Virus record (IMG/VR): IMGVR_UViG_3300001683_000154
Span: 2,917-23,598 of that record
Direction: 5' to 3' (one strand)
Source of the DNA: a virus
DNA length: 20,682 nucleotides
This document shows positions 1,160 through 19,850 of the stretch, piece after piece; position 1 is the stretch's first letter, and each line of letters opens with the position of its first letter. Under the pieces are notes generated by a model. It saw nothing but the letters and a program-made list of their open reading frames with translations, made no database searches and had not been told where the DNA came from. Both the position numbers and the translations under genes were made by a program.

Positions 1160-2077
1160 ATGTCAAAGATTAATTTTTTATCCACGGACAATGTAGACTT
1201 ACTTAATTCTAGGTTCTCCAGAGAACTACAATTTGGTAGACCACAATCAGAAGGTATTAATGCCATAAATCTTAGGGTTCTGGCATCTGATTGTAAATCT
1301 GTTTCTATTGGTAATGTGTTATATGACTTCCTAAGTAATAATACAGAGCATACTATTACCATTGATTATGTGATGGTTCAAAATGAACTAAACAATCCAG
1401 AACACGATGCCAATAAGACTATGCTTGAGGGTATGTTTGGTATAACAATAGATGTTATAAACTACTCGTCATTGGATGTAGCAGACCATCTTAAAGATTT
1501 ACCAGATACTGGCGCAATGGCGCATAACTCTGTTGGGTCTATGAGTGCAATTATTCCAACCGTTATTTCTACACTTCCAACTCACACACAAGGTAAAATT
1601 GAACTTCTTGTAACGGGTAGGAAGAACAAATCCCATACAATAGATTTAGATTACATTAGAACTTATCATTCTGATATATTTGAATATTTTTATAATTATC
1701 ATGTGGCTCGAGATTATTCTACATTGTTTAATATTAGACCTATCCTTGATGATTATGATGCGCATATGGACGAATATCTCAATTCACATCTATACATATC
1801 TGAAGTTGGTTCGGCACTACACAGAGCTATTGGAGTTGCGTTTTCTCCAGAAGTATCAGAACATTTTTCTGCATTAGATTTTCTTCCAGTATTACTTGAC
1901 CCGTTTACATTAGTTGTACATGGTGAATCAGTAACACAGGCATTGGTTGATTCTTACTCTACTGAGGATATCCAACATATTATTGATTGGGAAGCAGAGA
2001 ATTCTAGATCATTCTTTGTAGATTCAGAATATTCAAGACTTATAAATATGAATGTAACTTTAACTTCAATGGTATAA
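1160..2077 (+). CDS. Hypothetical protein, probable virion/tail component
   Basis: A 305-residue soluble protein that I cannot assign. It starts with ATG nine bases after the preceding stop. It contains a Gly/Ser/Pro-containing central stretch (about residues 113-142) and an acidic C-terminal third rich in Tyr, Asp and Glu. There is no signal peptide, obvious membrane span or catalytic motif. Its place directly after the repeat-bearing protein and ahead of the oxygenase genes makes a tail or baseplate part plausible. It could equally be a non-structural accessory protein. A T4-type late promoter element lies within its last codons. Confidence 0.55.
   Translation: MSKINFLSTDNVDLLNSRFSRELQFGRPQSEGINAINLRVLASDCKSVSIGNVLYDFLSNNTEHTITIDYVMVQNELNNPEHDANKTMLEGMFGITIDVINYSSLDVADHLKDLPDTGAMAHNSVGSMSAIIPTVISTLPTHTQGKIELLVTGRKNKSHTIDLDYIRTYHSDIFEYFYNYHVARDYSTLFNIRPILDDYDAHMDEYLNSHLYISEVGSALHRAIGVAFSPEVSEHFSALDFLPVLLDPFTLVVHGESVTQALVDSYSTEDIQHIIDWEAENSRSFFVDSEYSRLINMNVTLTSMV
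2041..2048 (+). promoter_or_regulatory. T4-type late promoter element (TATAAATA)
   Basis: An exact TATAAATA octamer, the -10 element read by RNA polymerase carrying the gp55 late sigma factor, lies 33 bases upstream of the first oxygenase gene (ATG at 2081). Its position at the end of a gene, just ahead of a new functional group, fits a late promoter. AT-rich sequence makes chance matches common, so confidence is moderate. Confidence 0.5.
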
Positions 2078-2080
2078 ATT

Positions 2081-2938
2081 ATGTACAGCAAGGGTGGGCA
2101 GTTCTATGATTATGAAGTTCCAACTAATCCTATCTGGGATATTAATAAGGTAGACCTTAATTGGAAGAAAGTAAATAACCTTATAGAGTTCTCAACCAAG
2201 AATTCTCGTATACTCCCCGATGAGCATCAAGCTTTCGACTTAAACACACACCCACACTCTATTATTATAGTCGACGACTTAATATGTCCAGATGCCCTTG
2301 AAGCCCTAAGGAATGAATACCATAAGATTCATGGCGAATACTCAGCCACATTCAACATCCGTAACAATTCCGTAACACCCTCAAAATACAAAAAAATTGT
2401 ACACACTTCAAAATCAAAAGATTCCTCTGGTTTAGGTATTCATGACGCATTGCAATGTGTCACGGAACAAGTTTGGGATTATGGTAAGAATATTTTATTA
2501 AAAAATGGATATGAAGGTATTCATCATATAGACTCTTGGATTAATAAAGGGAAACTGAAAGGATCTGCAAAGGGTATGTATCATTTCATGCACTATGATT
2601 GTGACGAATACCTTGAGTTCTCAAAAGACTTATTCAGATTTCCAGCATGTGCTGCTGTACTATTCCTCAAGGTAGAAGAAAACTCTCACAAAACATACTT
2701 CCCAGATTTTGACCAATCAATAACACCAAAGACAGGAAGAGTTGTATTTTTTGATGCTAGATATCTTCATGGAGTTTTTCTAAATAAACTTCAAAAACTT
2801 GAAGACGAAAGAATTGTAATGGTGTCAAATTTATGGGACTACCCAACAAGATCAGAACAAATTGAAACTACTCATGGAGTTACTGGGTTCACTAGAGGAT
2901 TAAAAGATGGAATTGAATATACAAAAGAAAACCCTTAA
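2081..2938 (+). CDS. 2OG-Fe(II) oxygenase-like protein (1 of 4)
   Basis: A 285-residue protein with the signature of Fe(II)/2-oxoglutarate-dependent oxygenases on a double-stranded beta-helix. The likely iron-binding facial triad is H171-x-D173 (in MHYDCDEY) and H230 (in DARYLHGV), and R244 (in DERIVMVSNLW) is the expected 2OG-binding arginine. The spacing between H-x-D and the distal His (about 57 residues) fits the family. The first 100 residues are an N-terminal extension. These enzymes couple 2OG decarboxylation to hydroxylation of protein, sugar, nucleic acid or lipid substrates; the substrate cannot be read here. It is the first of four such genes in a row, and the next gene starts inside its last 32 bases. 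Confidence 0.72.
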   Translation: MYSKGGQFYDYEVPTNPIWDINKVDLNWKKVNNLIEFSTKNSRILPDEHQAFDLNTHPHSIIIVDDLICPDALEALRNEYHKIHGEYSATFNIRNNSVTPSKYKKIVHTSKSKDSSGLGIHDALQCVTEQVWDYGKNILLKNGYEGIHHIDSWINKGKLKGSAKGMYHFMHYDCDEYLEFSKDLFRFPACAAVLFLKVEENSHKTYFPDFDQSITPKTGRVVFFDARYLHGVFLNKLQKLEDERIVMVSNLWDYPTRSEQIETTHGVTGFTRGLKDGIEYTKENP

Positions 2939-3533
2939 TACATTAGGGTCAGAGCGGGCAGTATATATTATAGATGGACTATTCAATGAAGATGAAGTCT
3001 CAGCTTTATTTGATAGTGCAATGAAGTCGACATATACACTCAACGCCGAATGGGCTACAAACAATACGGATAAAGTAAAATTTATTTCTGGAAGAGATAA
3101 CCTCGAATTTCAAGGTTCCACAACATTCTCTAAATTTAAAGATGCAGCTTTAAAAACGTTCGGTAGGTTTAATCTTCAGCTTAAACCATATGATGTTTCT
3201 GTGAACTGTACTAATCCAGGAGATACTCCATACGAACATAGGGATGGGTTTTGTAAGGATGTTTTAGATTTAACTTTTATACTCTATATAAATACTACAT
3301 GGGATAGAAACTGGGGTGGTGAAACAGTTTATTATACAGATTCTGGAGAAGTTGCATTTTCTGTATTACCAAAACCTGGAAGACTAGTGATTCATGAGTG
3401 CATATTAAACCACGCATCACGAGCCCCTTCTATAGATATGCTTGCAGGACAACCACACAGATTTACTCTGGCCGCGAAGTGTACGAACAATATGAAATAT
3501 TATAATTTTAAATGCGAAGGTGATTGTGTATAA
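2907..3533 (+). CDS. 2OG-Fe(II) oxygenase, prolyl-hydroxylase-like (2 of 4)
   Basis: A 208-residue protein resembling the prolyl-4-hydroxylase/PiuC-like branch of the 2OG-Fe(II) superfamily. The iron ligands are H111-R-D113 in the segment EHRDGF, and a distal His in NHASRAPS (H169). R185 in HRFTLAAK is the likely 2OG anchor. The motif LYINTTWDRNWGGET between them is characteristic: a strand followed by W-x-x-x-x-GGE. The chosen ATG at 2907 lies inside the previous gene but has an AGAGGA ribosome binding site just upstream, so the 32-base overlap is probably genuine. Such genes are frequent in marine T4-like phages, but their substrates are largely unknown. The superfamily call is solid; the target is not known. 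Confidence 0.85.
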   Translation: MELNIQKKTLNTLGSERAVYIIDGLFNEDEVSALFDSAMKSTYTLNAEWATNNTDKVKFISGRDNLEFQGSTTFSKFKDAALKTFGRFNLQLKPYDVSVNCTNPGDTPYEHRDGFCKDVLDLTFILYINTTWDRNWGGETVYYTDSGEVAFSVLPKPGRLVIHECILNHASRAPSIDMLAGQPHRFTLAAKCTNNMKYYNFKCEGDCV

Positions 3534-3534
3534 C

Positions 3535-4145
3535 ATGTTAAATAATAGATTCTCCGTACCAATATGGATTAATTCCGTCGATGAAAAATATCACAGATAC
3601 TTCAAATACCTATCAGAATATGTCCTCTTTCTGAAGGATAAGGATACTGAAAATTCTAGTCACGACAGATTGCAACATAATCGATCTGGTCTATATACAA
3701 CATATCACTCAAAAAAACAAAATAAACTACTTGTTGACAAAGAATGTGAATATCTTAGAGAAATTATAACAGAACAAGTTCATGAATATTTTAAGTCTAT
3801 GGATTTTGATTTTGATAAAAATAAGTTTTCTATTGTATCATTATTCGCTAATGTCATAAGTAAAGGTGGTTATCACTCCAACCACATCCACGAACAGACA
3901 CCGTTCGCTGAGAAGATTCTTCACCTCTATATGTATTGTCCCCAATGGTACAACAGACATCCTGTATACCAATTACAACTTTTCATAAAAACGGTCCTAC
4001 ACAATTCGAACAAGCTATTAAACTTCCACCAAAGGTTGGAGATGTGGTTATGTTCCCTGCATATGTTTTCCATGAAGTAACACCATCTGCCGTAGATGAA
4101 GATAGAATATCTGTTGGATTTAATATTCAAATTGAAGCTAAATGA
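3535..4145 (+). pseudogene. 2OG-Fe(II) oxygenase (3 of 4), interrupted by two +1 frameshifts
   Basis: The first part reads from ATG 3535 in one frame through GGYHSNHIHEQTPF (likely iron ligands in the HxxHIHE segment). That frame then loses similarity. A second frame continues with FFTSICIVPNGTTDILYTNY (about 3917-3982), and a third continues with HKNGPTQFEQ, PPKVGDVVMFPAYVFHEVTP and RISVGFNI to the stop at 4145. Joined, these give about 202 residues with the full family pattern: N-terminal His motif, beta core, GD-(x)4-FPAYVFHEV distal His, and Arg. Each junction needs one base skipped, near 3913-3917 and in the T run at 3980-3983. Either the gene is truly broken, or the sequence has two single-base insertion errors. 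The stop overlaps the next start (ATGA). Confidence 0.65.
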
Positions 4146-6097: not shown

Positions 6098-6976
6098 ATG
6101 AATTTTACATTATCAAACAACGCAAAAGTAAAAATACTTCAAGCATTTGTGTATATTGTGTCAATCTGCACAGTTGTATTTGCCTTTGACTTGACATTAT
6201 TCTTAGTTGCACTTGCACTTGGGTGGATTACATTTGGTATAGCTGGTTCAATTTGCCTACATAAACTATCATCACACCGGTCATTTGTTCCTAAGAATAA
6301 GTTAATTAAGTGGATCATCCTATGGTTTGGTACAATTGGATCACTCGGTTCAACTATATGTTGGGCAGCGGGTCACAGAGAACACCACGAACATTCAGAT
6401 TTAAAAACTGATCCACACAGACCTTTTGGTTCTCCGTTCCATAAATTTAAAATGTGGTTCTACTACTTCCCAACATGGGATATAAGCCCTGCAATTGTCG
6501 CAGATCTTCTTCGAGATAAAGACCACGTTTTCTTCCACAAACATTACTATAAGATTGTATTGTCTTATATCATATTCCTTGGTATCCTTAACCCAATCTA
6601 CATTGGGTACTTCTATGCTATTCCCGTACTCTACCTATTATTTGGTATTTCTTGGGCAACAGTTATAGCACATATACCACAACTCGGTTATAAATCATTT
6701 AGAACTTATAACTCGAGAGACTACACATATAATAGTCATATGTGGGGAATTATTCTTGCGGGTGAAGGTTATCACAATACTCACCACTCTAATCCTTGGC
6801 TTTGGAATACAGCTCTTTGCAAAGGTGAGTTTGATCTTACGGCACCAATAATTAAATTGATTGGTATTCCTAATGATATTCCTCCAAAACCTTTTGATGA
6901 ACCTCGTACAGGATTTGCTCTGGTTGAAGAGCTAAGGGTAGTTAAGTTTAATCTTGAGAATGGTGGTCACGAATGA
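6098..6976 (+). CDS. Membrane fatty-acid desaturase (DesC/acyl-CoA type)
   Basis: A 292-residue integral membrane desaturase. All three histidine boxes of the di-iron desaturase family are present and correctly ordered: H55-x4-H60 (HKLSSH), H93-x2-HH97 (HREHH) and H226-x2-HH230 (HNTHH). Hydrophobic pairs flank them at about residues 14-53, 69-90, 151-165 and 167-192, consistent with four membrane spans and His boxes on the cytoplasmic face. Family members insert a double bond, often delta-9, into acyl chains bound to CoA, ACP or membrane lipid, using O2 and two electrons. No cytochrome b5 or ferredoxin domain is fused, so electrons must come from the host. It starts a late unit and its stop overlaps the paralogue that follows. 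Lipid desaturases are known from marine T4-like cyanophages. Confidence 0.9.
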   Translation: MNFTLSNNAKVKILQAFVYIVSICTVVFAFDLTLFLVALALGWITFGIAGSICLHKLSSHRSFVPKNKLIKWIILWFGTIGSLGSTICWAAGHREHHEHSDLKTDPHRPFGSPFHKFKMWFYYFPTWDISPAIVADLLRDKDHVFFHKHYYKIVLSYIIFLGILNPIYIGYFYAIPVLYLLFGISWATVIAHIPQLGYKSFRTYNSRDYTYNSHMWGIILAGEGYHNTHHSNPWLWNTALCKGEFDLTAPIIKLIGIPNDIPPKPFDEPRTGFALVEELRVVKFNLENGGHE

Positions 6977-7779
6977 CACACTACCAATTAACAAAACTAT
7001 TCCAAGCTTTTAGTTGGGTAGGACTACTATCAGTATTTGCATTCTTCTTTGATTCTACCTTATTCCTCTTCTCGATATTAACAGGATGGTTATATTCTGG
7101 ATTTGGTCTTGGTATATGCCATCATAGATATGCAGCACATAAATCTGTTGAACCGAGGAATAGATTTATTAAGTTATTTTTATTGTTCATTGGAACTATA
7201 ATTACACACGGCTCTGTGATTGCTTGGACTATTACACATAGGTATCACCATAAGTATGTTGACGAAAAGAAAGATCCTACTAATCCTGCAGGGTCTGTTT
7301 GGCACAAGGTAAAGTGTTTCTTTTATCACTTTGAAAACTTAGAGGCAAACAACACGAATATAATGGTACTCGACCTTATTAGAGATAAAGACTTTCTATT
7401 CTTCCATAAGTATCATTTTCATATAGTCATCTCCTACATAGTTGCATTGGCATTAGTAAACCCTTTATATGTATTATATTTCTATTGTATTCCGATATGT
7501 TATGTAATTGGTACTTCAGGGTGGGTTACTACACTCAGTCACTCTCCAAGTACCTCTATATTCGGATATAGGAATTATAATTCTAAAGATTTGGCATATA
7601 ACTCGTTATTTTGGCAAATATATACAATGGGTGATGGGTATCATAATAATCATCATGCTTGTCCTTGGTTATCAGATATGGCAGTAACTAAATATGAATT
7701 TGATTTATGTGGTAAGATTTGTCAGATAATAGGTAAACCAAAAAAACAAGAACCCAGCTCCGTGGAGATAAGTAAATAA
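6973..7779 (+). CDS. Second membrane fatty-acid desaturase
   Basis: A 268-residue paralogue of the preceding desaturase, joined to it by an ATGA overlap. The histidine boxes are intact: H51-x4-H56 (HRYAAH, preceded by another His), H89-x2-HH93 (HRYHH) and H224-x2-HH228 (HNNHH). Four hydrophobic segments surround them. Shared blocks with its neighbour include a RDKD-x3-FFHK stretch before the third hydrophobic region and a YNS-(R/K)D motif before the third His box, showing common ancestry. The sequences have clearly diverged, so the two may differ in double-bond position or acyl carrier, or form a hetero-oligomer. Its stop shares a base with the ACP start (TAATG), so the two are coupled. Confidence 0.9.
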   Translation: MTHYQLTKLFQAFSWVGLLSVFAFFFDSTLFLFSILTGWLYSGFGLGICHHRYAAHKSVEPRNRFIKLFLLFIGTIITHGSVIAWTITHRYHHKYVDEKKDPTNPAGSVWHKVKCFFYHFENLEANNTNIMVLDLIRDKDFLFFHKYHFHIVISYIVALALVNPLYVLYFYCIPICYVIGTSGWVTTLSHSPSTSIFGYRNYNSKDLAYNSLFWQIYTMGDGYHNNHHACPWLSDMAVTKYEFDLCGKICQIIGKPKKQEPSSVEISK

Positions 7780-8027
7780 TGAATATTGAAGAACAAGTTA
7801 AGAATGTAATATCTAAACGATTGAGTATCGATATAGATAAAGTTAAGAGTGAATCGCGGTTAATTGAAGATCTGAAAGCAGACTCTCTCGACACAGTTGA
7901 GGTGATATTGATGCTTGAAGAACAACTTGAAATGACCATCCCGGATCAACATTTTGGAGATATATCAGATGTACAATCTGTCATTGACCTTATGGAAAAA
8001 TTAACATATACGAGCCAAGATGACTAA
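7779..8027 (+). CDS. acpP: Acyl carrier protein
   Basis: An 82-residue acidic protein matching bacterial acyl carrier proteins over their whole length. The phosphopantetheine attachment motif is DSLD with the modified serine at residue 36, the same number as in E. coli AcpP, and the surrounding ADSLDTVEVILMLEEQ helix II is classic. ACP carries acyl chains as thioesters during fatty-acid and lipid synthesis; it is inactive until a holo-ACP synthase adds the phosphopantetheine arm. A GGAG ribosome binding site lies at 7762-7765 within the end of the desaturase gene. Direct coupling to two desaturases suggests that it presents acyl chains to them or to host acyltransferases. A cognate holo-ACP synthase gene is at 16960. 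Confidence 0.93.
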   Translation: MNIEEQVKNVISKRLSIDIDKVKSESRLIEDLKADSLDTVEVILMLEEQLEMTIPDQHFGDISDVQSVIDLMEKLTYTSQDD

Positions 8028-8356
8028 ATTAAACGACACATTCGGCACAGAATCTGAAGTGCTTACTCCATATGTAAAATTATGAATATACTAGGGAAAA
8101 CCTATATAATCTAGTTGAGAATGGTAATGCCGCACTTGAAGATTTGGTTGAGTTGGCTAAACAATCTGAGCATCCTCGAACCTATGAGGTTCTAGCAACT
8201 CTAATAAAAACAATTGGGGATACTGCAGATAAGTTAGCTATACTCCACGAGAAGCAACAGAAATTGGAAGGTAAAGATGAAGGTCCAGATTCTGTAACTA
8301 ATAACCTTTTTGTTGGATCATCTACAGAGTTATTGGATATAATTAACAAAAAATGA
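8020..8356 (+). CDS. 16: Terminase small subunit gp16, with apparent +1 frameshift
   Basis: The downstream frame (8078-8356) encodes a stretch matching T4 gp16: AKQSEHPRTYEVLATLIKTI, then FVGSSTELLDII near the end. gp16 recognises concatemeric DNA and stimulates the gp17 packaging motor. This frame has no ATG start, only a TTG at 8144 well inside the conserved helix NYEYTRENLYNLVENG. A start ATG at 8020, overlapping the ACP stop, opens a 21-codon frame ending in TGA at 8083. Skipping one base in the A run at 8076-8079 joins the two into a 111-residue protein, with the join just before NYEYTREN. So this is a +1 frameshift: programmed (TTA-TGA context, like prfB), a mutation or a sequence error. 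T4 gp16 is 164 residues. Confidence 0.75.
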
Positions 8357-9906
8357 GTGACGCTTATCTAAATAATCCACTTCTAACTAGAAAACGCTCT
8401 GTACATAATTATACAGAAGAGCAAATTATTGAGTTAAAGAAGTGTGCAGACGATATAGAGTATTTCGCAGAGAATTACTTTACTATTGTGCATGTAGATA
8501 AAGGTAAAATAAAAATACCATTATATGACTATCAGAAAGCTTTACTTAAACAGTTCGGCAAAGAGAGATTCAATATAGTCACACAATCCAGACAGTCTGG
8601 TAAAACAACTACAACTACTGTATTTGTTCTCCATTATATTCTATTCAATAAAGATAAGACTGTTGCCATTCTAGCAAACAAAGGTGATACTTCACAGGAA
8701 ATATTGAGCAGAATCCAGTTGGCGTTCGAATTAATTCCAAACTGGCTAAAGCCTAACGTAACCGAATGGAATAAACGGACTGTTGAATTTGAGAATGGAT
8801 GCCGTATTATGGCTCGGGCTACTAGTTCTAGTTCCATTCGTGGTCAATCTGTGTCATGTCTTATTGTGGATGAGGCAGCTTTTGTTCAGGGCTGGAATGA
8901 ATTCTACACATCAACTTATCCAACAATTGCTTCTGGTAAGGATACTAAGGTTATATTGGTATCAACTGTTAATAAACTAAACCACTTTAATTCAATTCGA
9001 GTTAAAGCGGAACGGGGTGAGAACGAGTTTGTGCCATTTGAGGTTAAATGGTCAGATGTTCCGGGAAGGGATGAGGAATGGAAACGACAAACGATAGCCA
9101 ATACTTCGCTTGAAGACTTCCTACAGGAGCACGAGAATGAAGCACTCGGTTCTACGAATACACTAATATCATCATCTGCACTTAGAGAGGTAGTTACAGA
9201 AGAACCTATAAAAATTGCACATGGGGTGTCTTATTTTGTCCTACCAATTCCTGAGCATAAATATATAATAACAGTAGATACTTCGCACGGTAAAGGGTTA
9301 GATTACTCAGTTGCGTCTGTGTTTGATGTAACAAAGTATCCAATAGAACAGGTTGGAATGTTTAGGTCAAATAACACAGCCCCTGTGGTATACGCTAAGA
9401 TTGTTAATAATCTAGGCATTCAATATAACGAGGCATACATATTAGTAGAATCTAACGATGTAGGGTCTGCGGTAGTTGGTGATCTAAACTATGAATACGA
9501 GTATGAAAACATTATTAACGAAAGAACTGGTACAGAAAAATACGCACTTGGTGTTAGAACAACTAAGCTGACTAAGAGAATTGGTTGCCAAACACTTAAA
9601 GATTTAATAGAGTCAAATAAACTTATTATTCGTGATATAAATACTATAGTAGAATTAGCGAACTTTGTTTCTGTTGGTAATTCATACCAAGCTGAACGAG
9701 GTAAAACTGATGATATAGTAATGACTTTGGTAATGTTAGCTTGGTGTACAACCACTGAAAATTTTGACGTAATAGGCGACACACAAATAAAAGGATTATA
9801 TAAAGATAAGATAGATGCGGTAGACGATATGTTGACACCATTCCTTTCATCAGAAATGGATGAAGACTCAAACGGGTTTTACGAAAACGGCGACTACTGG
9901 CACTAA
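8353..9906 (+). CDS. 17: Terminase large subunit gp17 (packaging ATPase/nuclease)
   Basis: A 517-residue T4-type large terminase (T4 gp17 is 610). The N-terminal ATPase has Walker A SRQSGKTT at 79-86, Walker B LIVDEAAF with D173-E174, and coupling motif VSTVN near 203-207. The C-terminal RNase H-like nuclease has the expected acidic triad at D309 (TVDTSHGKG), E366 (LVESND) and D453/D454 (GKTDDIVM). With the gp16 ring it docks on the portal, cuts concatemers and pumps DNA into the prohead using ATP. It begins in an ATGA overlap with gp16. In T4 it is followed by tail genes 18 and 19; here the portal gene follows directly after a late promoter. Confidence 0.97.
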   Translation: MSDAYLNNPLLTRKRSVHNYTEEQIIELKKCADDIEYFAENYFTIVHVDKGKIKIPLYDYQKALLKQFGKERFNIVTQSRQSGKTTTTTVFVLHYILFNKDKTVAILANKGDTSQEILSRIQLAFELIPNWLKPNVTEWNKRTVEFENGCRIMARATSSSSIRGQSVSCLIVDEAAFVQGWNEFYTSTYPTIASGKDTKVILVSTVNKLNHFNSIRVKAERGENEFVPFEVKWSDVPGRDEEWKRQTIANTSLEDFLQEHENEALGSTNTLISSSALREVVTEEPIKIAHGVSYFVLPIPEHKYIITVDTSHGKGLDYSVASVFDVTKYPIEQVGMFRSNNTAPVVYAKIVNNLGIQYNEAYILVESNDVGSAVVGDLNYEYEYENIINERTGTEKYALGVRTTKLTKRIGCQTLKDLIESNKLIIRDINTIVELANFVSVGNSYQAERGKTDDIVMTLVMLAWCTTTENFDVIGDTQIKGLYKDKIDAVDDMLTPFLSSEMDEDSNGFYENGDYWH

Positions 9907-15113: not shown

Positions 15114-15503
15114 ATGAATAAAATTGATGTTACAAAATTAGCCACTGAATCCGCAGAGACTCCCTTTATATACTCCGCCAAGTTAAACCAGTACAATGAA
15201 GTATTGGCTAAACTTAAATGGGTTCAAATGGAGTATGATTCTGAATACAAAAACAAATTCCGATATTATCTAGGTAAGGCTGAGCCTTCAGTTTATTTAG
15301 ATAACCCCCTCCCAGAAAAAGTTCTTAAAGTTGATGTTTCTATATACATTAACGCAGATACAGATATTATTGAAATTAAAAAGAAATTAATTGGTCTTGA
15401 AATACAAGAGAAGACCTTGACACTTGAGCTTAAAGAACTATCTACTAGAAGTTTCCACATACGAAATATTATTGAATGGACTAAATTCCAAGACGGTGTA
15501 TGA
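15114..15503 (+). CDS. uvsY: UvsY-like recombination mediator
   Basis: A 129-residue, mostly helical protein directly upstream of uvsW. The size (T4 UvsY is 137) and pattern fit UvsY: an N-terminal helix with YSAKLNQYNEVLAKLKWVQME, a basic aromatic stretch KNKFRYYLGK, and a C-terminal helix ending RSFHIRNIIEWTKFQDG, which parallels the RGFAIKHIQDMRAFEAG end of T4 UvsY. UvsY loads the UvsX recombinase onto single-stranded DNA coated with gp32. A TTG six codons upstream (15096) lies within the promoter and has no ribosome binding site, so I take ATG 15114. No Shine-Dalgarno sequence is seen before the ATG. The stop overlaps the uvsW start (ATGA). Confidence 0.78.
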   Translation: MNKIDVTKLATESAETPFIYSAKLNQYNEVLAKLKWVQMEYDSEYKNKFRYYLGKAEPSVYLDNPLPEKVLKVDVSIYINADTDIIEIKKKLIGLEIQEKTLTLELKELSTRSFHIRNIIEWTKFQDGV

Positions 15504-16960
15504 TAACAAATAATAAATCTGATATAATTATCAAGAAAATAAACTCTGTTCATGTGCATGTTGAATGTTCTAGAGACATTGCAATGGAGCTTTACGAACA
15601 CTTTACATTCATGGTTCCAGGTGCTAAGTTTATGCCAACCTATAAGTCTGGTTTTTGGGACGGCAAGGTTCGAATGTTTAACCTTAATTCTGGAAAGATT
15701 TATTACGGTTTAAAGTTTGAAGTGGCAAGGTTCGCGGAGACTCGAGGATATACATTCTCTCTATTCGACGAATCTGTTTCTGTTGAGTTAAACCAAGTTG
15801 AAGATATCATTGAAGCGCTCAACCTACCAATGAAACCGTATGACTATCAAGTTGACGCTATTCACCACGCAATAAAACACAACAGAGCTCTTCTGGTTAG
15901 TCCAACAGCCTCTGGTAAATCTTTAATTATATACTGCCTAGCTAGGTATCACCTCGCGAAGCAAAACAAAGTATTAATTTTAGTTCCAACAACCTCTTTA
16001 GTGTCCCAACTTCACAAAGACTTTAAAGACTACGGATTTGATTCTGATACTTTTTGTCACCAAGTTACGGCTGGTGTAGATAAAATTTCAGACAAACCTG
16101 TTATCATATCTACATGGCAGTCTGTATATAAGATGGGTAAAGAATACTTTGCAAAGTTTGATGCTATCTTTGTAGATGAATGTCACCTTGCTAAGGCGAA
16201 GTCTTTATCTACTATACTTGAGAAGATGACTCACTGCGACTTTAAATACGGGTTGACAGGAACACTTGACGGAACAGAAACTAATAAACTAACGCTCTCT
16301 GGTTTGTTTGATGTCCCTAAGATAGTAACAACAACAAAGAAGCTAATAGATGATGGAGCAATATCAAATCTAAAGGTGAACTGTTTAATATTAAATCATT
16401 CGAAAGAAGATAAAAAGATTGCCGTAGCGGCAAAGTCTTATCAAGAAGAATGTGATTACTTAGTTTTAAATAAATCAAGGAACCAATTTATCTCTAGGTT
16501 GGCTACTTCATTAAAGGGTAATACACTTGTTCTGTTTAGTTACGTAGAGAAGCACGGTATGCCATTGAAAGACCAAATTGCAGCGATGACAGATAAAGAA
16601 GTTCGCTATGTATCTGGCATAGTTAAAGCTGTCGATAGAGAAGAAACTAGAGCTATTGCAGAGAAGAATGATGATGTTATTATTGTAGCTTCATATGCAA
16701 CATTCTCTACTGGTATTAACATTAAAAACCTACACAATATTGTTTTTGCCTTTCCAACTAAGTCACAGGTTAGAGTTCTTCAGTCAATAGGTCGTGGTCT
16801 TCGTACACATAAGTCTAAAGATATTTGTAATGTATATGATATTGCAGATGATATAAGGGCTGGTAAAAGGAAGAATTATACTATGAACCATTTTAACTCG
16901 AGAGTTGGAATTTATAGGGATTCCGAGTTTGATATATCAATGAATATTATTGATTTATAA
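15500..16960 (+). CDS. uvsW: UvsW-type superfamily 2 DNA helicase
   Basis: A 486-residue helicase aligning with T4 UvsW (503) over its length. The N-terminal domain has the family's GFWDGKVRMF near 51-60. SF2 motifs follow: the Q-like YDYQVDAI near 114-121, motif I SPTASGKS (134-141), Ia LVPTTSLV, motif II VDECH (D226-H229), III TGTL near 253-256, and motif VI QSIGRGLR at 428-435. UvsW unwinds branched DNA and R-loops, drives branch migration and stalled-fork regression, and shifts T4 from origin-dependent to recombination-dependent replication. It is coupled to uvsY by ATGA and to acpS by TAATG. In T4, uvsW is a late gene; here it appears to be read from the sigma70-type promoter at 15079. 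Confidence 0.96.
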   Translation: MITNNKSDIIIKKINSVHVHVECSRDIAMELYEHFTFMVPGAKFMPTYKSGFWDGKVRMFNLNSGKIYYGLKFEVARFAETRGYTFSLFDESVSVELNQVEDIIEALNLPMKPYDYQVDAIHHAIKHNRALLVSPTASGKSLIIYCLARYHLAKQNKVLILVPTTSLVSQLHKDFKDYGFDSDTFCHQVTAGVDKISDKPVIISTWQSVYKMGKEYFAKFDAIFVDECHLAKAKSLSTILEKMTHCDFKYGLTGTLDGTETNKLTLSGLFDVPKIVTTTKKLIDDGAISNLKVNCLILNHSKEDKKIAVAAKSYQEECDYLVLNKSRNQFISRLATSLKGNTLVLFSYVEKHGMPLKDQIAAMTDKEVRYVSGIVKAVDREETRAIAEKNDDVIIVASYATFSTGINIKNLHNIVFAFPTKSQVRVLQSIGRGLRTHKSKDICNVYDIADDIRAGKRKNYTMNHFNSRVGIYRDSEFDISMNIIDL

Positions 16961-17361
16961 TGATTTACGGTATAGGTACAGATATTGTTGACCTCGCTCG
17001 GATCGAATCGAGTATTATAAAGTTTGGGGACTCCTTCGCTCGAAAGATTTTATCGGAAAGAGAGTTAGAAGGGTATTCCTCATGTATGTCAGAGAGGGCC
17101 AACTATATTGGAAAAAGGTTTGCTGCAAAAGAAGCATTTTCAAAGGCAGTAGGTACGGGTATCAGAAACCCTCTATCATTTCAAAACATTACTATTCTTC
17201 ATGATAACCTAGGTAAACCCATTATCCATCTGGCAGAAAATCTTGAAGATTTGATAAGGAAAAGACGTATTACTTCAATGCACCTTACCATTTCAGATGA
17301 GAAGAATTTAGCCGCTATAGCATTTGTTGTACTAGAGGGGTTTACAACTAAGCTAAACTAG
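16960..17361 (+). CDS. acpS: Holo-[acyl-carrier-protein] synthase (AcpS)
   Basis: A 133-residue phosphopantetheinyl transferase of the AcpS type (E. coli: 126). It moves the 4'-phosphopantetheine arm from CoA to the serine of apo-ACP. Both family signatures are intact: GIGTDIVDLARIE at residues 4-16, with the Mg-binding Asp8, and KRFAAKEAFSKAVGTGIR at 52-69, with Glu58. The end HLTISDEKNLAAIAFVVLE (108-126) is the last conserved strand block. The ATG shares a base with the uvsW stop (TAATG), so it is expressed with the recombination genes. The natural substrate is presumably the phage ACP at 7779; the phage enzyme could also act on host ACP. Its last 21 bases hold the -35 and spacer of a further promoter. 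Confidence 0.95.
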   Translation: MIYGIGTDIVDLARIESSIIKFGDSFARKILSERELEGYSSCMSERANYIGKRFAAKEAFSKAVGTGIRNPLSFQNITILHDNLGKPIIHLAENLEDLIRKRRITSMHLTISDEKNLAAIAFVVLEGFTTKLN

Positions 17362-17369
17362 TATATAAT
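17341..17369 (+). promoter_or_regulatory. Sigma70-type promoter at the end of acpS, driving the non-coding region
   Basis: TTTACA (17341-17346), a 17-base spacer and TATAAT (17364-17369). The hexamers and spacing equal those of the three other promoters in this half of the window. Predicted start is near 17376. The dyad TATAAT-AGT-ATTATA covers 17364-17378. There is no reading frame for about 390 bases downstream, so its first product would be an untranslated RNA. Confidence 0.78.
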
Positions 17370-17375
17370 AGTATT

Positions 17376-17633
17376 ATAAGTTAAAGTGCTTTATGTAACA
17401 AATATAACCGTCTGAGTCGCAAGCTATCGGGTTAGTTAAGGCTACCAATTCCACCTATGTGAAATTGCAACCGTCCATTGAGTCTGCACAATCAAGATAT
17501 GGAAAAGAAATCGAGTCGGGGCAATAACAATTCCGTATGATATGAATATACGGTTGAGCCCATTTAAGATTCCTGAATTAACAGGAACTAGGCTAGTAGA
17601 ATCCGTAATCTACCTTAATATAACTGTAACCAA
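17376..17633 (+). ncRNA. Candidate structured non-coding RNA, family unknown
   Basis: The 409-base gap between acpS and the methylase gene has its own strong promoter and no supportable reading frame. Its base composition is richer in G and C than the flanking AT-rich spacer. Several exact hairpins are visible. CAATT-C-CAC/GTG-A-AATTG with a CTAT loop spans 17446-17467. CCGTAT/ATACGG spans 17533-17553, enclosed by GGGC/GCCC (17519-17522 with 17558-17561). TTCCTG/CAGGAA spans 17570-17587 and GTAGA/TCTAC spans 17596-17613. AACC/GGTT (17406-17409 with 17430-17433) is also possible. I find no tRNA, tmRNA, RNase P, group I or group II intron core, hammerhead or glnA-type motif that fits. It could be a regulatory RNA, a riboswitch-like leader for the methylase gene, or an unknown phage RNA. 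The 3' end is not defined. Confidence 0.55.
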
Positions 17634-17665
17634 AATTAATACTTAAATAATAATTAATACTTAAA
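17634..17665 (+). repeat. Two 14-bp direct repeats, 18-bp period
   Basis: AATTAATACTTAAA occurs at 17634-17647 and again at 17652-17665, exactly 18 bases apart, between the candidate RNA and the methylase promoter. Tandem AT-rich repeats of this kind can bind a regulator or be slippage products. Nothing else identifies the role. Confidence 0.7.
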
Positions 17666-17679
17666 ATGTCATATATGTA

Positions 17680-17697
17680 AATAATAATAATAATAAT
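17680..17697 (+). repeat. AAT trinucleotide run (6 units)
   Basis: Six perfect AAT units lie just upstream of the methylase promoter -35 element. It is a simple repeat, probably arising by slippage, and could act as an AT-rich upstream element. Confidence 0.8.
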
Positions 17698-17698
17698 T

Positions 17699-17732
17699 CT
17701 ATTTACAATACTAGTAATATATGTTATAATAG
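17699..17732 (+). repeat. 34-bp direct repeat, copy 1 (contains promoter)
   Basis: The 34 bases at 17699-17732 are identical to 18227-18260. The copies flank the methylase gene, 528 bases apart, and each contains a full promoter. Such identity in AT-rich non-coding sequence implies recent duplication or recombination. Confidence 0.95.
17702..17730 (+). promoter_or_regulatory. Sigma70-type promoter for the methylase gene
   Basis: TTTACA (17702-17707), a 17-base spacer and TATAAT (17725-17730). Predicted start is near 17737, giving a leader of about 34 bases with an AAGGAA ribosome binding site at 17757-17762. A TATAAT-AGAT-ATTATA dyad (17725-17740) overlaps the start site. Confidence 0.88.
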
Positions 17733-17770
17733 ATATTATACATAAAGATATTTAATAAGGAATATATAAT

Positions 17771-18223
17771 ATGAAAAATAGAAGCTTAAATCATTCAGAT
17801 AATTGGGAAACACCAAAAGAACTTTATGATGCTTTAAATGATGAATTTAACTTTGACTTTGATCCTTGTCCAATATCACATATCGATATAACAGAAGATA
17901 AAGATGGATTATTAATTGAATGGGGTAATTCTAATTTTATTAATCCACCTTATTCTAGACAATTAAAAGAAGCATTTGTTAAAAGAGCAATTGAATATTC
18001 AAAAAAAGGTAGAACCTGTGTAATGTTATTACCTGTCTCAACTTCTACTATTCTATTTCATGAACAAATACTTCCAAATGCATCAGATATTAGATTCCTT
18101 AGAGGTCGAGTTAAATTTATAGGTATTAATACATTTGGTGAAAAGGTATCTACAAAAGCTGGTATGCATGATTCAATGATAGTAGTTTTTAACAATTCGG
18201 GAAAGATATGGTATAATCGTTAA
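17771..18223 (+). CDS. Phage DNA N6-adenine methyltransferase (Dam-like)
   Basis: A 150-residue protein of the small phage N6-adenine methyltransferase family (the DNA_N6 / 'Dam, phage protein' type). Landmarks are NWETPKELYDALNDEF at 11-26, FDFDPCP at 28-34, the catalytic NPPY at 58-61 with following SRQLKEAFVKRAIEYSKKG, and LPVSTSTILFHEQIL near 92-106. RFLRGRVKF follows near 113-121, and the end is GMHDSMIVVFNNSG. It would methylate adenine in DNA using S-adenosylmethionine, as protection from host restriction or as a regulatory mark. It has its own promoter and is more AT-rich in codon choice than the neighbouring replication genes. It is flanked by 34-bp repeats, suggesting an inserted module. 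Its recognition sequence cannot be read here. Confidence 0.88.
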   Translation: MKNRSLNHSDNWETPKELYDALNDEFNFDFDPCPISHIDITEDKDGLLIEWGNSNFINPPYSRQLKEAFVKRAIEYSKKGRTCVMLLPVSTSTILFHEQILPNASDIRFLRGRVKFIGINTFGEKVSTKAGMHDSMIVVFNNSGKIWYNR

Positions 18224-18226
18224 ATC

Positions 18227-18260
18227 CTATTTACAATACTAGTAATATATGTTATAATAG
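18227..18260 (+). repeat. 34-bp direct repeat, copy 2 (contains promoter)
   Basis: Identical to 17699-17732. It begins four bases after the methylase stop and carries the promoter of gp55. The copies diverge immediately outside these bounds, except that the ATTATA part of the start-site dyad is kept. Confidence 0.95.
18230..18258 (+). promoter_or_regulatory. Sigma70-type promoter for gp55-gp47-gp46
   Basis: TTTACA (18230-18235), a 17-base spacer and TATAAT (18253-18258). Predicted start is near 18265, leaving a 30-base leader with an AGGA site before ATG 18295. The dyad TATAAT-AGT-ATTATA spans 18253-18267. It places the late sigma gene and recombination nuclease under the host-type early promoter, as expected of regulators made before late transcription. 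Confidence 0.88.
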
Positions 18261-18294
18261 TATTATATTTAATATTAATAAAATAGGAAATTAT

Positions 18295-18804
18295 ATGAGT
18301 AATAAAGAACCTGTTCAACAACTTAAACCTAAACCTAAAGTCAAACCTTCTCATTATGTTAACAATGAAGAATTTCTTGCAGACATGTCAATTTATCGGG
18401 CTGACTATCTTAAGTACAAAGAAGACCCAGATAATGTAGAAAGACCAGTTTTATCTAATACTTCTGCTGTAGCCTTTATGAAGATATCTAAGAATTTAGC
18501 AACAAAACCTAACTTTAGAGGTTATACATTTGTTGAAGAAATGGTTCTTGATGGTATTGAAAACTGTATTGCATATGCTCACAACTTTAATCCAGAGAAG
18601 TCTAAAAATCCATTTAGTTATTTTACACAAATAATCTATTATGCATTTATTAGACGTATTCAAAAAGAAGCTAAACAAACTACCGCTAAACGTGGGTTGA
18701 TTCGTAATATTGATTTATCTCAATTGTTTTCTATTGACATTTCTGAGGGTAATGTGGATCTTCAACGATATTATGAGGATATTCTTAAGGATTATTTTAA
18801 ATGA
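18295..18804 (+). CDS. 55: Late-transcription sigma factor gp55
   Basis: A 169-residue protein matching T4 gp55 (185). The conserved core is NFRGYTFVEEMVLDGIENCIAYAHNFNPEKSKNPFSYFTQIIYYAFIRRIQKE at about residues 74-126, the part equivalent to sigma region 2 that binds the core polymerase clamp and reads the TATAAATA element. The N-terminus is Lys/Pro-rich. The C-terminal end, LQRYYEDILKDYFK, has the acidic/aromatic character of the sliding-clamp-binding tail in T4 gp55. It directs RNA polymerase to the late promoters seen in this window. It starts after an AGGA site and overlaps gp47 in ATGA. Confidence 0.93.
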   Translation: MSNKEPVQQLKPKPKVKPSHYVNNEEFLADMSIYRADYLKYKEDPDNVERPVLSNTSAVAFMKISKNLATKPNFRGYTFVEEMVLDGIENCIAYAHNFNPEKSKNPFSYFTQIIYYAFIRRIQKEAKQTTAKRGLIRNIDLSQLFSIDISEGNVDLQRYYEDILKDYFK

Positions 18805-19850
18805 AGATAGCTTGTGTAACGGACCAGCATTTTGGAGCAAGAAGTGATTCAATAACATTCTCTGAATATTTTGATAAGTTCTACTCTTCGGTATTCTTTC
18901 CATATTTAGAGAAGAATAATATTGATACAGTTATTGACCTCGGTGATACATTTGACCATCGTAAATATATTAACTATGATATCTTGGCTAGAACTAAAGC
19001 TACATGGTTTGATAAGTTGGCTGAGAAGAATATTCAACTTCATTGTATTGTAGGTAATCACTCTACATATTTTAAGAATACTAATTCTATCAATTCAATT
19101 GACTTACTGACTCAAGGTTATTCTAATGTAACAGCATATTCTGAATCTACCGATGTTAATATTGGCGGTCTTGATATACACTTTATCCCGTGGATTAACT
19201 CCGAAAACTCTGAGTCCGCTTTAAAGATGATTAAAGATACTAAAGCTAAGGTTGCATTTGGGCACCTTGAGATTAACGGTTTCTATTTAAACTCTGCAGT
19301 TGTTGCTCGTCACGGACTTGAAGCTAATATATTTAATAAGTTTGATTCTGTATATACAGGACACTTTCACAAGAAGTCTGATAACGGAACTATATATTAT
19401 CTAGGAACGGCATATCAGATTAACTGGTCCGATTATGGGGAAACAAAGGGTTTCCATGTATTTGATACAGAGACACTTGAGATGGAGTTTATTGAGAATC
19501 CACATACAATCCTAGAGAAAATATATTATGATGATAGAACCAACGACTATTCCACTTTTGATGTATCTGAATATGCAGGTAAGATAATTAAAGTTATAGT
19601 TCAAAATAAAACAGACCTCTATGGATTTGACCGATTCATTACTAGGCTTTACTCTATAGATACAGTAGATATTAAGATATTAGAAACTCATTCAATTGAT
19701 GAGATTGACGAGAACGATATTGACGAGATTGATGACACACGGTCTCTTATTACACATTATGTAGAATCAGTTAATATTCCTTCTATTGACACACCCACAC
19801 TTCAAACGAAGATGGATACATTATACACGGAAGCAGTTGAATTATTATGA
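18801..19850 (+). CDS. 47: Recombination nuclease subunit gp47 (SbcD/Mre11-like)
   Basis: A 349-residue metallophosphatase (T4 gp47: 339) that pairs with gp46 to resect DNA ends for recombination and host DNA breakdown. The motifs run in order: D8-x-H10 (TDQHFG), GD-T-FDHRK with D49, VGNHS at 84-88, GHLE with H155, and GHFHK with H188 and H190. The third motif is usually GNHD or GNHE; Ser here is unusual, but the metal-binding Asn and the His are kept. The C-terminal part ends with an acidic run (SIDEIDENDIDEIDD, about 295-309). It is coupled to gp55 and gp46 by ATGA overlaps. Confidence 0.95.
   Translation: MKIACVTDQHFGARSDSITFSEYFDKFYSSVFFPYLEKNNIDTVIDLGDTFDHRKYINYDILARTKATWFDKLAEKNIQLHCIVGNHSTYFKNTNSINSIDLLTQGYSNVTAYSESTDVNIGGLDIHFIPWINSENSESALKMIKDTKAKVAFGHLEINGFYLNSAVVARHGLEANIFNKFDSVYTGHFHKKSDNGTIYYLGTAYQINWSDYGETKGFHVFDTETLEMEFIENPHTILEKIYYDDRTNDYSTFDVSEYAGKIIKVIVQNKTDLYGFDRFITRLYSIDTVDIKILETHSIDEIDENDIDEIDDTRSLITHYVESVNIPSIDTPTLQTKMDTLYTEAVELL

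Follow-up and report, generated by a model that had tools for sequence, protein, structure and literature searches.

The virus analysed here is represented by one metagenomic contig, a record of 23,598 bases, of which we studied a stretch of 20,682 bases (hereafter the window) that carries T4-like genes for terminase, the major head protein, UvsY, UvsW, gp55 and a gp47-like protein, with the nearest annotated matches of gp55 lying in pelagiphages and cyanophages. The interval between uvsW and gp55 holds acpS, an adenine methylase gene and, between these two, a structured RNA gene of about 220 nt, together with two near-identical promoters of which one stands ahead of the methylase and the other ahead of gp55 (Table 1). 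Profile matches upheld the identities that a first-pass annotation had given to the methylase (PF05869 adenine methylase) and to gp55 (phrog_234 late sigma factor); the RNA gene just upstream of the methylase and the third promoter at 17341 were absent from that annotation. Besides the holo-ACP synthase, the same contig carries an acyl carrier protein and two genes resembling fatty-acid desaturases (6098-8027 and 16960-17361 of the window).

Table 1. Features of the uvsW-gp47 region, in window coordinates.
Feature	Position	Strand	Evidence or remarks
uvsW helicase gene	15500..16960	+	UvsW_N / phrog_16; left anchor of variable interval
acpS, holo-ACP synthase	16960..17361	+	TIGR00516, 124 bits, above cutoff
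RNA gene promoter, TTTACA-17-TATAAT	17341..17369	+	overlaps acpS end
Structured non-coding RNA with pseudoknot	17404..17620	+	covariance-model match 198.8 bits; covariation
RNA gene 3' tail	17621..17672	+	homologous to L173 tail; 0/1000 shuffles reach score
Left promoter repeat	17695..17740	+	34 exact, 17699-17732; -35 17702-17707, -10 17725-17730; ahead of methylase
Orphan N6-adenine DNA methyltransferase, 150 aa	17771..18223	+	PF05869 E=2e-22; phrog_111
Extra promoter-like site, TTAACA-17-TATAAT	18189..18217	+	inside methylase 3' end; 11/12 matches
Right promoter repeat	18223..18267	+	34 exact, 18227-18260; -35 18230-18235, -10 18253-18258; ahead of gp55
gp55, late-transcription sigma factor	18295..18804	+	phrog_234 E=2e-45
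gp47, SbcD-like nuclease subunit	18801..19850	+	phrog_100 E=1e-105; right anchor

Direct comparison confirmed what had been noted at first pass, namely a stretch of 34 bases, 17-base spacer included, in which the two promoter copies do not differ, and the likeness extends to 37 of 38 bases ungapped (17695-17732 and 18223-18260) and to 44 of 46 columns, with one mismatch, when one 1-base gap is allowed (17695-17740 and 18223-18267). No other exact direct repeat in the window is as long; against the 34 bases observed, the maximum was 18 bases in 200 dinucleotide-Markov controls of the whole window and 24 bases in 300 controls of AT-rich intergenic composition. Both copies are sigma70-like (TTTACA-17-TATAAT, with TG before the -10 box and 11 of 12 consensus matches), and the pattern TTTACA-N(15-19)-TATAATA occurs three times in the window where 0.05 occurrences are expected, namely at the two copies and at 17341. 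Judged from its position, each copy would drive the gene that follows it, as the -10 box lies about 40 bases from the start codon. The right copy starts on the final base of the methylase stop codon. Downstream of the copies, the two leaders show no significant similarity, their alignment score being reached by 193 of 1000 shuffles, and the further promoter-like site inside the 3' end of the methylase may be a chance occurrence. A terminator-like hairpin was looked for from 17600 to 18320 and not found, and methylase transcripts may thus also run on into gp55. A palindrome of the form TATAATA-(1-2)-TATTATA, seen by eye and partly computed, covers the -10 box in three promoters of the window (17725-17740, 18253-18267 and 17364-17378), and may be due to chance in AT-rich DNA.

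Similar to other orphan phage Dam-type methylases (PF05869 / TIGR01712 / phrog_111), the product of the bracketed gene matches PF05869 over its whole length (80.1 bits, curated cutoff 28.1) and retains an intact NPPY sequence at residues 58-61, the catalytic (D/N)PPY motif, which is invariant across 7 sequences; unlike them, it is encoded in a T4-like genome beside gp55 and falls below the TIGR01712 cutoff (60 bits against a curated 97). It shares 63% amino acid identity with the methylase of Lauvirus lau218, and by analogy with its family it probably guards phage DNA from host restriction. The first-pass annotation had proposed that the gene arrived as a promoter-plus-gene module. We found, though, that among 80 relatives of the methylase elsewhere none had the window promoter in its neighbourhood, none was flanked by repeats of at least 18 bases and none had other genes of the window nearby. 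The module proposal, in which the methylase brings its own promoter along, is thus not borne out, and the 80 relatives argue for a promoter that is proper to the phage lineage and not to the methylase.

A search of IMG/VR with gp55 gave 19 close contigs (L001-L019; gp55 56-70% identical), several of them near-duplicates, so that the independent lineages number fewer than 19. Each of these contigs has gp55 downstream of uvsW, and in the stretch examined between the two genes none has a methylase or a match to acpS. The methylase is accordingly, by sequence comparison with these relatives, an insertion in the lineage of the window, and acpS appears to be another lineage-specific gene at this place. 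The TTTACA-17-TATAAT promoter is the last element before gp55 in 15 of the 19, with no match to the pattern there in L015, L016, L017 and L018. The anticipated allele without the methylase is thus present in all 19, in 15 of them with one such promoter. The gp55 promoters of the three relatives compared share only 20-22 of 29 bases with the window copies. Because of this divergence, single-promoter relatives look ancestral rather than like products of deletion. No relative had a different gene between identical copies, the bracketed gene being either the methylase or absent, and we found no deletion allele with the same promoter among viral contigs; for these two reasons we treat the ‘ready-made gene-swap cassette’ of the first-pass annotation as a hypothesis. 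The interval as a whole is variable among the relatives by its gene content, with L014 carrying two beta-oxidation genes, a thiolase (269-1573) and a FadJ-like gene (1577-3550), in the space from uvsW to the RNA gene, and with other ORFs present in Mosig, HTVC008M and Melnitz.

To what extent promoters of this type resemble each other within a genome can be seen from 115 same-contig pairs, for which the mode of spacer identity is 8/17; the window pair alone reaches 17/17, followed by pairs in L177 (14/17) and L166 (12/17). An exact 33-base search of viral contigs for the window promoter returned nothing, and a degenerate search of IMG/VR found it only in L173, where 25 of 29 promoter bases and 11 of 11 downstream bases agree. 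There it precedes a copy of the RNA gene that occupies another genome position, between tRNA-Met and a tail-sheath-like gene. The 11 downstream bases are common to the right (gp55-side) copy of the window, while the left (methylase-side) copy has 3 of 11 ungapped; as this match is to a promoter in a related phage, it weakly suggests that the right copy is the resident one. The AT-rich segment 17622-17672 was considered as a decayed ancestral gp55 promoter and rejected, since its likeness to L010 and L004 is no better than that of shuffles (411 and 382 of 1000); it is instead homologous to the tail of the RNA in L173.

At this locus the RNA gene is of greater novelty than the promoter arrangement. 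We found it in 25 related IMG/VR contigs, 24 by exact motif and one as a diverged copy in L002 (94.5 bits), and it lies between uvsW and gp55 in 18 of the 19 relatives and elsewhere in L017. In an alignment of 12 sequences, made by MAFFT without structural information although the structure was derived from the same alignment, standard pairs fill 98.3% of the cells of a 48-pair structure, and both sides have changed in 23 of its pairs; none of 500 shuffles reaches the observed values, and slid structures give at most 46%. A pseudoknot is formed by the helix at columns 184-188/252-256, which crosses that at 112-115/211-214, and both helices contain changes on both sides. The evidence is one of covariation, as the single-sequence fold of the region is no better than that of shuffles (z 0.67). 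Rfam 15 yielded no match by sequence or structure, relaxed thresholds included, the best chance-level hit reaching 14.4 bits against a gathering threshold of 46.7, and the gene matched no known family, tRNA or tmRNA; our search of the literature was limited. Nor was it found by a motif search of bacterial and archaeal genomes, by blastn in phage records, or by covariance model in HTVC008M, Mosig, Melnitz and lau218. CFrI, PhotoRC-II, wcaG and the glutamine riboswitch have been named as structured RNAs for T4-like cyanophages (PMC9602691), and the RNA of the window is similar to these Rfam phage RNAs in being a conserved structured RNA of T4-like marine phages, but differs from them in matching no Rfam 15 family.

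In L170, L174 and L178 the RNA gene has gp23 and a gp19-like tail-tube gene as its neighbours and is encoded on the opposite strand, and we consider it an independent gene on this account; these positions, together with that in L173, rule out that it is a leader of gp55. Two further features were observed beside RNA genes in relatives. In L002 the 5' half of the gene (3690-3860) is strongly diverged, with a late-promoter-like TATAAATA just upstream at about 3691, and in L173 the adjoining ORF (8095-8676) has CxxC pairs and an HP motif that look HNH-like by eye, with no Pfam match at 0.01.

We think it reasonably probable that a recent insertion, through recombination or template switching at a promoter of the lineage's type, placed the methylase in front of gp55 and gave the order promoter-methylase-promoter-gp55. 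The methylase would have carried, or acquired, a copy of the lineage's promoter, and joining at the resident gp55 promoter by either process would be the simplest mechanism, such that gp55 would retain its promoter and the new gene would gain one of the same kind. The event would be recent enough for the copies to have stayed identical, and if the insert were excised through the repeat, a single promoter would again be left. In this sequence of events we infer the recombination step, its recency, the activity of the promoters and loss of the insert through the repeat. What stands against dating it is that no close relative has the methylase at the site; the insertion is for this reason not datable, and its direction rests on 11 bases. 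Alternatively the insertion could be old, with gene conversion or shared function keeping its two promoters similar, in which case their identity would say nothing about arrival. T4-type phages recombine heavily, and the partial likeness of the same-genome pairs in L177 and L166 suggests recurrent homogenisation or duplication of promoters, but functional constraint alone leaves spacers at about 8/17 in these phages and the methylase is found in 0/19 relatives, and we hold an old insertion to be rather unlikely. Also tentative, and in our view doubtful, is a broader reading of the site as a gene-exchange point organised around a mobile phage RNA gene, hitherto undescribed, and its promoters, where the repeats would admit cargo genes (the methylase, acpS and fatty-acid genes) beside core genes of late transcription; it is prompted by the co-occurrence of the RNA and the same promoter type elsewhere in the genome of a related phage.

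The direct repeat brackets a single gene, and its right copy begins at the stop codon, as might be expected of a target-site duplication or of the ends of a transposon, homing gene or site-specific integrant. Nevertheless, no transposase, integrase or homing nuclease is among the interval's genes, relatives of the methylase lack such ends, and what is repeated is a promoter resembling others of the lineage; moreover target-site duplications are usually shorter than 34-46 bases, and a mobile element is thus very improbable. Hardly more credible is that the contig was misjoined at the repeat, or the repeat duplicated by the assembler. The record is a single metagenomic one and its promoter was found in no other contig except, diverged, L173, yet the order on both sides (uvsW-RNA to the left, gp55-gp47 to the right) is that of the relatives, one mismatch and one gap separate the copies, and assembly k-mers are usually longer than 34 bases.

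Taken together, the arrangement most likely represents the recent insertion of one gene at a promoter, an event of the type already put forward for T4-type phages, here without the usual stem-loop. Promoter early stem-loops (PeSLs) mediate modular gene shuffling in T4-type phages according to Arbiol et al. 2010 and Comeau et al. 2014, as given in a passage of PMC4503421 from which, along with general background, we take their definition. By this definition, the window is similar to PeSLs in having a repeated host-type promoter that is intergenic, lies in a T4-like phage and brackets a lineage-specific gene, with recombination between promoter repeats as the proposed agent. The host-type early promoter is recognisable in its sequence (TTTACA-17-TATAAT with TG before the -10 box), and near-identical copies in several intergenic spaces are represented by two within a 23.6-kb fragment. 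It differs from PeSLs, so described, in that neither copy has a stem-loop or terminator and in that only one gene is bracketed, adjoining a core gene. Since the promoter and repetition features are present and the stem-loop is not, we regard the arrangement by its sequence as PeSL-like and not as a PeSL. Among the relatives, hairpins were seen only in L014, where two perfect ones of 9 and 10 bp immediately precede the gp55 promoter.

Adjoining the insertion is a strongly supported structured RNA that is absent from Rfam. If the insertion reading is true, the locus would show promoter-mediated gene gain at an early stage, in a marine T4-like phage that is uncultured and next to the gene (gp55) by which late transcription is switched on, and would suggest that a promoter repeat alone may suffice for such gain, with no need of the PeSL stem-loop.
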